Shown one piece after another: positions 8,607 to 10,431 of a stretch of 51,312 nt of DNA (positions are counted from its first letter, which is position 1; every line of letters begins with the position of its first letter). The stretch lies in the NCBI GenBank assembly GCA_002791545.1, contig PFXG01000061.1:1-51312 (forward strand), read 5' to 3'. The DNA is from Zetaproteobacteria bacterium CG_4_9_14_3_um_filter_49_83. Lineage in GTDB: Bacteria; Pseudomonadota; Zetaproteobacteria; Mariprofundales; Mariprofundaceae. The position numbers were made by a program, and so were the translations under genes. Below the pieces are notes generated by a model that was not told where the DNA came from, searched no databases, and saw nothing but the letters and a program-made list of their open reading frames with translations.

Positions 8607-9551
8607 ATGAATATCTACGGATTTAATCCGAATCTTAGCCGCAACAGTTTGTGGCAATTTGCAGCTTTTCTGCTGGTGGGTATCGGCGTGCTGTTGCTGT
8701 TTTCCGACACAGTGGCACAGATGTATACGAGCAATCAGCAAACCCATCTGGGTTTGATTTTGAATGGTTTCATTCTCGCCCTGTTTTCAGTGGCGGTGAT
8801 TCGATTACTGATATTGCTTTTCCATTATCGGCGCGAAGAACTGGCGCTGGCCAAGTTTCACCGGCATTTGCAGGACGGGGCTGCAGATCCGACCTACGGC
8901 GTTGATGAAGGCAGCATGGTGAATATTCGTTACCAGACCATTCTGCATCTGAAAAAGGAGCATGCCACGATTAACCATCAGGCGTTGGCTTCTGCGCTGG
9001 TGGCAGCTGAAAGTACGCGCGCGGGCAGCATCCGCTTTGTCCATCATGTGCTGATTTTATGCGGTGTGTTCGGCACGATCGTATCGCTGTCGATTGCCCT
9101 GTTCGGTGCATCGAGCCTGCTTGAGTCGGCCGTCTCATCCACCGGTATGGGCATGGTGATTCATGGCATGTCGACGGCATTATCAACGACCATGACGGCA
9201 ATTGTCTGCTATATCTTTCTGGGTTATTTCTTTACCGCCCTGCAACAGATCCAGACCGGCTTGTTAGGAGCACTGGAGCAGATTACCACCACCCGCTTGC
9301 TGGCGGAGGAAGCGGAATCTCCCGATGCGGTACACCGTAAGCTGTATGAACTCATGCAAACGCTGGCTAAACTGCTGCAAAGTATGGGGGGCTTAACCAA
9401 GCAGATGCAGGAGTCGCAGCAGCAAATGCCGGAAATGATGCAGGCGATGCAGCAACAGTTGCAGCAGGATGAGCGTGCCCATGCGCAGGTGATGCAGCAG
9501 CTGGAAGCAACTCAGGCTTTGCTGCGCGAAGGGTTCCGGTTGCAAGACTGA
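8607..9551 (+). CDS. MotA/TolQ/ExbB-family proton channel protein
   Basis: The 314-residue protein has about four membrane segments (roughly 16-38, 48-72, 141-166, 178-212). The last pair carries the MotA_ExbB signature: HHVLILCGVFGTIVSLSIAL and MVIHGMSTALSTTMTAIVCY, the Thr/Ser-rich helix that lines the proton path. A ~90-residue glutamine-rich coiled-coil tail (QMQESQQQMPEMMQAM...) extends into the cytoplasm. With the next gene, 1 base away, it should form a 5:2-type stator using proton flow. It is not flagellar MotA (no PomA/MotA torque-loop pattern seen) and no tolA, tonB or flagellar gene is nearby. ZorA of Zorya is another comparison, but no zorC, zorD or zorE is present. Confidence 0.8.
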   Translation: MNIYGFNPNLSRNSLWQFAAFLLVGIGVLLLFSDTVAQMYTSNQQTHLGLILNGFILALFSVAVIRLLILLFHYRREELALAKFHRHLQDGAADPTYGVDEGSMVNIRYQTILHLKKEHATINHQALASALVAAESTRAGSIRFVHHVLILCGVFGTIVSLSIALFGASSLLESAVSSTGMGMVIHGMSTALSTTMTAIVCYIFLGYFFTALQQIQTGLLGALEQITTTRLLAEEAESPDAVHRKLYELMQTLAKLLQSMGGLTKQMQESQQQMPEMMQAMQQQLQQDERAHAQVMQQLEATQALLREGFRLQD

Positions 9552-9552
9552 T

Positions 9553-10431
9553 ATGCCTATGCAGCAAAACGGATTTGTCGATTTAAGAATGCACCATCAA
9601 CAGCAGGGTGATGAGGGCTTCTGGCCTTCATTTACGGATATCATGACCGTCATTCTGATGATCTTTTTGCTGGCAATGCTGACGCTATTGATCCGCAATA
9701 TGGATTTGGTCAATCAGTTGCGCCAGGCGTTGCAGGCAGAGCAGCAGGCCAGCCAGGCATTGGCTTCCACATCGACTCAGAACTCCACGCTGAATCAGAA
9801 AATCGCTCGCCTTGAAAATGAAGTGGCGATGATGCGCATGCAGTTGATGGACGTGGGTGATGCAAAGGTGACGGCCGAGGCGAAGCTGAAAATTGCCCAG
9901 CAGGAGCTGAACCAGTTCAGGTTGGCGCAACAGCAATGGCAGCTGGCAGAAAATGCGCTGCGCCAGCAGTTGTCTGTTGCAGAACAACAACAGGTGTCAC
10001 TGAAACTTCAGAACGATGCATTGCAACAAAGCTTTAACGAGAAATCACAGGACTACATGCAGTTGATGCAGCAAACGGGTATGCAGAAAGAGCAATTGGA
10101 TCGATTGCAGCAGGAGTATGCCGATCTGGATGTGAAATATAAAAAGCTGATCAGGCCTGCCCGCAGCACGCTGGGTAAATTTGTGGTGATGGTTCGTTAT
10201 CAGAAAATCGATGGAAAATTACTCGTCGAGATGAAAGAGCCACAGGAAAATGCCTTCAGAGAAGTGGACGCTATTGAGATGCATAAACAACTGGCCGCAT
10301 TACAGGAAAAACACAATAAAGATTTATATGTGAAGATTGTTTTTCCCGATGAAAGCGGACTCTCTTATAATGAAGCATGGAATCTCACTGAGTCGCTGTT
10401 GAAGATGTATGACTATTATTATCAGGAATGA
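9553..10431 (+). CDS. MotB/ExbD-like stator partner with long coiled coil
   Basis: The 292-residue protein has one N-terminal membrane helix beginning FWPSFTDIMTVILMIFLLAM. Asp29 sits where MotB, ExbD and TolR have their proton-binding aspartate. Residues ~50-205 form a long glutamine-rich coiled coil. The last ~85 residues are globular (KFVVMVRYQKIDGKLLVEMK, then LAALQEKHNKDLYVKIVFPD) with a strand-helix pattern reminiscent of the ExbD/TolR periplasmic domain. No OmpA-like peptidoglycan-binding motif is present, unlike MotB and ZorB. It follows the MotA-like gene by one base with no separate ribosome site, so translation is coupled. Cargo or function is unknown. Confidence 0.75.
   Translation: MPMQQNGFVDLRMHHQQQGDEGFWPSFTDIMTVILMIFLLAMLTLLIRNMDLVNQLRQALQAEQQASQALASTSTQNSTLNQKIARLENEVAMMRMQLMDVGDAKVTAEAKLKIAQQELNQFRLAQQQWQLAENALRQQLSVAEQQQVSLKLQNDALQQSFNEKSQDYMQLMQQTGMQKEQLDRLQQEYADLDVKYKKLIRPARSTLGKFVVMVRYQKIDGKLLVEMKEPQENAFREVDAIEMHKQLAALQEKHNKDLYVKIVFPDESGLSYNEAWNLTESLLKMYDYYYQE

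Follow-up and report, generated by a model that had tools for sequence, protein, structure and literature searches.

A conserved MotA/ExbB-type gene pair whose candidate axle subunit carries a coiled-coil rod of heptad-quantised length

The window, that is, the whole stretch of 51,312 nucleotides that was analysed (contig PFXG01000061.1 of Zetaproteobacteria bacterium CG_4_9_14_3_um_filter_49_83), contains two adjacent intact open reading frames, both on the + strand and separated by 1 bp. Gene A (8607..9551) encodes a protein of 314 aa with four hydrophobic segments revealed by hydropathy analysis and was assigned as a putative outer-ring subunit of the MotA/TolQ/ExbB type. Gene B (9553..10431) encodes a protein of 292 aa which, from its alignment and AlphaFold model, was assigned as the candidate axle or rod subunit. 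The pair is preceded on the same strand by tsaD (PF00814) and a gene encoding a sodium:dicarboxylate symporter (SDF, PF00375), the position given for it in an earlier note on this DNA, and is followed on the opposite strand by genes encoding a methyltransferase, an O-antigen ligase and glycosyltransferases. No flagellar, Tol, Ton or Zorya genes were found among those flanking A-B in the window, in agreement with that note; a TonB or TolA gene is absent beside the pair in the window, and the relatives revealed no conserved neighbour either.

The AlphaFold model of protein A was obtained with a mean pLDDT of 79. When the model was searched with Foldseek, the top matches were all ExbB, TolQ, ZorA or MotA with a probability of ~1.0, the TM-scores being modest at 0.3-0.5 and the E-values no better than 0.002. 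The MotA_ExbB profile (PF01618) scored 11 bits against A, which is under the curated cut-off, and hhalign ranked ExbB/TolQ first and MotA second with every decoy family lower. As judged by predicted fold, hydropathy and hhalign, A is a divergent MotA/TolQ/ExbB-type subunit that belongs to the superfamily at the level of the fold, which bears out the channel helices that had been proposed for it. The predicted TM3 and TM4 core (residues 143-212; 9033..9242, + strand) contains GVFGT157 and GMGxVIHGMSTALSTT195 and was aligned by hhalign to the TM2-TM3 core of ExbB/TolQ. The two motifs, the latter as GMG-VIHGMS-AL-TT195, were essentially invariant in 22 homologues, and the polar core residues T157, S189, T194 and T195 were invariant. 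hhalign places GVFGT157 opposite GLFGT of ExbB, and Thr190 of A lies at the position of the ExbB pore glutamate, which we take to be Glu176.

The core is followed by a Gln-rich helical tail predicted to be cytoplasmic (residues 213-314; 9243..9548, + strand), as had been claimed from the sequence, and the AlphaFold model shows predicted helices at residues 178-236, 239-270 and 274-307. Near the C-terminus, G309-F310-R311-L312 (9531..9542, + strand) was invariant in 22 of 22 homologues, and GFR was found at the end of A in all 79 sequences of a larger set. The 22 homologues were gathered via B and not via motifs of A, and the ORF starts were set mechanically. Since the 79-sequence sets had been selected by motif (IHGM/GTI for A, FTD for B), conservation counts derived from them are in part circular; for these motifs the counts given here are from the unfiltered alignments of 22 A and 23 B proteins. 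At two further loci (L134:4579-5553 and L142:4923-5897) an A gene lies between proA and nadD with no adjoining B, and the encoded proteins end exactly in GFRL.

Protein B has a single hydrophobic segment by hydropathy (residues 29-47), contained in a putative transmembrane helix (residues 27-48; 9631..9696, + strand) that was delimited from hydropathy, invariant residues and N-terminal matches to ZorB1 and MotB_plug. The candidate ion-site residue Asp29 (9637-9639, + strand) is located within the motif FWPSFTD, and F23, W24, P25, F27, T28 and D29 were each invariant across all 23 homologues of a set that had not been selected for Asp29. The closest sequence matches of B were the membrane helices of ZorB-type proteins (ZorB1 models, E ~1e-6), confined to the N-terminal region, and hhalign likewise paired the B N-terminus with ZorB. 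The MotB_plug profile scored 13 bits, which is sub-threshold; neither A nor B passes any Pfam threshold. A conserved F-x-D-L motif is present in the N-terminus, which is predicted to be cytoplasmic. The sequence evidence points to an axle helix of MotB/ZorB type with an invariant Asp29, in accordance with the earlier reading.

The AlphaFold model of B predicted one continuous helix at residues 28-199. Beyond the membrane helix is an unbroken, proline-free coiled coil of 148 residues (residues 50-197; 9700..10143, + strand), identified from the model and the hydrophobicity spectrum. The earlier note had proposed a coiled coil of ~155 residues; its presence was confirmed, although the measured length is somewhat shorter. 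At 0.1485 nm per residue the rod in the window measures ~22 nm, which is about the width of the periplasm, and is thus long enough to span the gap between both membranes. The hydrophobicity spectrum of the rods showed a sharp peak at exactly 3.5 residues with a mean power of 11.6 versus 1 for white noise. Not one proline was found among 15,712 rod residues across the family, and the heptad phase was constant throughout rods of 370-414 residues. In three relatives (L106, L108 and L112) the B protein is 518-560 aa long, and its coiled coil, uninterrupted and in phase over ~370-414 residues, would measure 55-62 nm if straight.

Rod lengths were counted in 72 distinct B proteins from the transmembrane Asp, anchored at W-P-x-F-T-D, to the motif KLIRPAR, and ranged from 168 to 434 residues. 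Taken modulo 7, the lengths of 66 of the 72 proteins, and 15 of the 20 distinct lengths, fell in a single class; no comparable concentration was found in these proteins for other moduli. The six off-class rods comprise five shifted by +4 and one by +1, which are the stutter and the skip of coiled coils. In a tree built without the rod sequence at least 27 length changes were accompanied by only five phase changes, for which the odds are ~1e-14 by a binomial estimate with a 1-in-7 chance of keeping the phase; the tree is a quick one in which some long branches are unsure. The B rod is a continuous, in-phase coiled coil of heptad-quantised length, a property newly found here. Since the length changes almost only by whole heptads, the far domain stays in register with the ion site. 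Steps of a heptad would keep register in any functional dimeric coiled coil, and the results therefore indicate a continuous rigid coil and are no proof of torque. A precedent for heptad-quantised coiled-coil length is found in the linkers of PadC sensors (PMC9587094). DNA slippage was considered as a source of the heptad steps and rejected, based on the finding that the B genes of the window, L108 and L148 contain no heptad-size tandem repeats and that of L150 only two micro-repeats of 9-10 bp.

The rod of B is followed by a C-terminal domain of ~90 residues (KLIRPAR...YDYYYQE; 10144..10431, + strand) for which an alignment of 40 sequences and the model, with a pLDDT of ~85-90 over most residues of the domain, predict the order beta-beta-beta-alpha-beta-alpha. 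The spacing from KLIRPAR to YDYY was 88 residues in 58 of 60 B proteins and is fixed, unlike the length of the rod. An OmpA domain in B, which the earlier note had named as evidence against its proposal, was looked for by profile search and no match was obtained either with full-length B (E up to 1) or with six C-terminal domains (E up to 10). The domain also had no match in Pfam and, as a profile searched against PDB sequences, none in the PDB. ExbD/TolR (PF02472) gave no match to B even at a loose threshold, hhalign aligned most of the domain with ExbD at a score of 20.4 over 91 columns compared with 19.8 for the best decoy, and the 50 Foldseek matches listed for the full-length B model included no ExbD and no clear fold match to the domain, whose signal may have been masked by the long helix. 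Thus, of the proposal that this domain is ExbD/TolR-like and not OmpA-like, the second part stood, whereas the first was unsupported by sequence or by full-model Foldseek; the predicted element order is compatible with ExbD/TolR, and any resemblance is one of predicted topology. Domains that are not OmpA-like may nevertheless bind peptidoglycan, so that the lack of a peptidoglycan anchor proposed in the earlier note goes further than the lack of an OmpA domain.

Of the 78 genomes of the order, some of which are incomplete, 27 contain A, 28 contain B and 27 contain both; in the only genome with B alone (G170) the gene begins at a contig edge. In four genomes of the Mariprofundus type (G062, G070, G206 and G234) the full-length B is located away from A, both still being present. 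At the A loci of two of these genomes (Mariprofundus MAGs; L058:9210-9947 and L059:213-959) A is followed by a short second B (245-248 aa) that has the same membrane helix and a stretch resembling the rod but lacks the distal domain; it is conceivable that a short B beside A and a full-length B encoded elsewhere form a mixed axle. Among the 98 relatives identified by a genome-wide scan, the 80 best belong to Zetaproteobacteria and Gammaproteobacteria, the latter including Sedimenticola, Chromatiaceae, Thiolapillus and Olavius symbionts. These groups are iron and sulfur oxidisers. Clustering of the neighbourhoods of ~110 loci revealed no constant neighbour gene other than the pair itself, local synteny of close relatives aside. 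The survey of homologous pairs suggested in the earlier note thus established A-B as a conserved two-gene family of Zetaproteobacteria and Chromatiales/Sedimenticola-type Gammaproteobacteria. Its conservation in dozens of species indicates that the pair is not a product of chance. No relatives were found in viral contigs or in the phage and plasmid collections, and a mobile or phage origin was rejected on that basis.

Overall, we consider it reasonably probable that A-B is an ion-driven motor of the MotAB/ExbBD/TolQR/ZorAB superfamily in which the rod of B conveys energy or force to the outer envelope. This reading is based on the fold of A, its similarity to the ExbB/TolQ profile and its invariant core residues, on Asp29 and the continuous helix of B with its heptad-quantised, proline-free rod, on the inheritance of A together with B in 27 of 28 genomes even where the genes are unlinked, and on the presence in the window genome of its own separate ExbB/ExbD-type pairs. 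A and B would assemble as a motor complex, probably A5B2, in which ions, whether protons as in the earlier note or sodium, passing the A ring at the Asp29 site of B would set ring and axle rotating against one another. Outside the membrane the B dimer would form a rigid, two-stranded coiled-coil rod, phase-locked in its heptads to the membrane helix, with a predicted length of ~22 nm in the window and up to ~60 nm in relatives, and its far end, at the outer envelope or close to it, would bear the two orphan domains as a pair. The most likely role of such a complex would be to carry ion-motive energy through the periplasm to a partner in the outer membrane or cell wall whose gene lies elsewhere, in the manner of GldLM, TolQRA and TonB-ExbBD. 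We infer the 5:2 stoichiometry, ion flow, rotation, span of the periplasm, force transmission and the existence of the partner. The absence of a conserved partner gene beside A-B counts against a motor acting on such a partner, and the longest rods (~55-62 nm), if straight, would overshoot an ordinary periplasm, which counts against a span of the periplasm; the weak sequence similarity of A to known motors, as judged by the PF01618 score, also counts against a motor. A more specific form, namely a new trans-envelope rotary drive in which the proline-free, phase-locked shaft is fitted to the width of the envelope in 1-nm heptad steps and turns or pulls an outer-membrane machine of iron- and sulfur-oxidising bacteria, is possible and regarded by us as tentative.

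The opposite direction of work was also considered, in which the distal domain of the rod is fixed to peptidoglycan or the outer envelope as in Zorya or Mot motors, and the A ring turns so that its GFRL tail drives or releases a cytoplasmic partner. The helical tail of A with its absolutely conserved end and the F-x-D-L motif in the predicted cytoplasmic N-terminus of B would suit such a motor, and Zorya provides the precedent, since it depends on the tail of ZorA, on ion flow and on the binding of ZorB to peptidoglycan (PMC11890865). However, B has no OmpA domain, the tail comprises ~100 residues of a 314-aa protein compared with the 692-aa ZorA, and no conserved gene for a cytoplasmic effector was found near A-B, with the result that a cytoplasm-facing motor appears rather unlikely. 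Far less credit is given to a divergent Zorya-type defence module without linked effectors. The pairing of the B N-terminus with ZorB by the ZorB1 models and hhalign is its best argument, but the match is confined to the region of the membrane helix: PADLOC models gave no match to A and matched only residues 12-116 of B (27 bits), whereas a genuine ZorA/B/C set included in the same scan as a positive control scored 1e-261, 1e-107 and 1e-208. A ZorC query, in a search that yielded no positive hit by which to gauge it, gave no match in the 78 genomes of the order, ZorC/D/E adjoin A-B neither in the window nor in the loci of relatives, the neighbours are housekeeping genes, and the family is absent from the phage and plasmid collections and viral contigs. 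The identity of A-B as Zorya was rejected on the basis of the PADLOC results and the strong control. The control came from L244, a complete Zorya-like ZorA-ZorB-ZorC locus with a 1151-aa gene of ZorD size. At L243 and L249 a ZorB-like protein of 236 aa is followed by conserved genes of 361 and 112-115 aa and, at L243, by a 688-aa gene with an N-terminal hydrophobic segment, which is possibly another motor-linked system.

It is improbable, in our estimate, that A-B is an accessory regulator or ion channel for secretion or adhesion in the manner of SiiAB, with the rod sensing envelope geometry and not transducing force. Pairs of the MotAB kind are known next to genes for type 1 secretion, a distant pair lies within an RTX/ABC-transporter cluster, and a heptad-quantised length would suit a ruler or sensor; genes for secretion or adhesins are nevertheless not conserved around the A-B family. 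The distant pair (L060, G268:C23:86000-105000) comprises a MotB-like protein of 255 aa and a MotA-like protein of 563 aa, whose genes share a cluster with those for an ABC transporter, an HlyD-like protein and an RTX repeat protein, an arrangement that recalls SiiAB. An ordinary ExbBD/TolQR paralogue with an unusually long ExbD, serving an existing Ton or Tol system, would agree with the nearness of A to ExbB/TolQ by profile and fold and with the predicted topology of the C-terminal domain, yet it is very hard to accept given the absence of even a loose PF02472 match to B, the lack of a TonB or TolA gene nearby and the presence in the window genome of three further complete ExbB/ExbD-type pairs separate from A-B. 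That genome also encodes another MotA/ExbB-like protein of 345 aa (L066:1099-2136, contig C67). Close homology to characterised ExbBD, TolQR or Mot proteins, which had been named as contradicting the original proposal, was looked for and not found.

Returning to the trans-envelope motor, the known axles are anchored in peptidoglycan through OmpA (Mot, Zorya), end in short ExbD/TolR domains or form a multi-domain shaft (GldM); B differs in that its axle helix passes without a break into a rigid rod. The family provides a natural and testable series of motor shafts differing in length and, if the rod transmits torque or tension, a simple two-gene system in which to ask whether the axle or the ring turns. 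A-B may also mark an uncharacterised envelope function common to iron- and sulfur-oxidising bacteria.

Compared with ExbB-ExbD and TolQ-TolR, A-B shares the fold class and profile similarity of A, the single transmembrane helix of B with its putative ion-site Asp, and the adjacency of the genes. A differs from ExbB/TolQ in its four hydrophobic segments, its long tail and the presence of Thr190 at the presumed equivalent of Glu176, and B differs from ExbD/TolR in being about twice as long, in its coiled coil of 148 residues and in its terminal domain, for which no similarity to ExbD was detected. With respect to ZorA-ZorB, the membrane helix of B has its best sequence match there, FWPSFTD corresponding to YWMSFSD, and a cytoplasmic tail is predicted in A too; however, A-B lacks the OmpA-type domain and nearby ZorC/D/E genes, its tail is much shorter and its rod much longer, and it is located outside defence islands. 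The four-segment topology of A and the MotB_plug-like N-terminal helix of B resemble MotA-MotB, from which B differs by its sub-threshold MotB_plug match and by the lack of an OmpA domain. A role as flagellar stator was rejected, since no MotB_plug protein was found in the window genome (99% complete) and A-B occurs independently of MotB in the order, being present in five genomes without MotB while MotB is present in 32 genomes without A.

TPH-vWA proteins are a known case in which a motor ring has a periplasmic partner of non-canonical type that bears the ion-site Asp (PMC12204202); that partner contains a vWA domain whereas B consists of a coiled-coil rod and an orphan domain, and no description of the A-B family was found in the passages of that survey that were consulted. 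In a 2025 survey covering MotAB and homologues outside the flagellum, generic transporters are described as having shorter plug-linker regions and further domains whose function is unknown; the term "coiled" is absent from its text (PMC12505986). No genes for gliding or T9SS were found near A-B, and GldLM was absent among the Foldseek matches listed for A. By description, A-B nevertheless resembles GldL-GldM in combining a motor that has a long periplasmic shaft with a tailed outer subunit, the 18-nm periplasmic shaft of GldM being a precedent for a long motor shaft (PMC9389320); the two differ in that GldM is built of four folded domains whereas the shaft of B is a single uninterrupted coiled coil.
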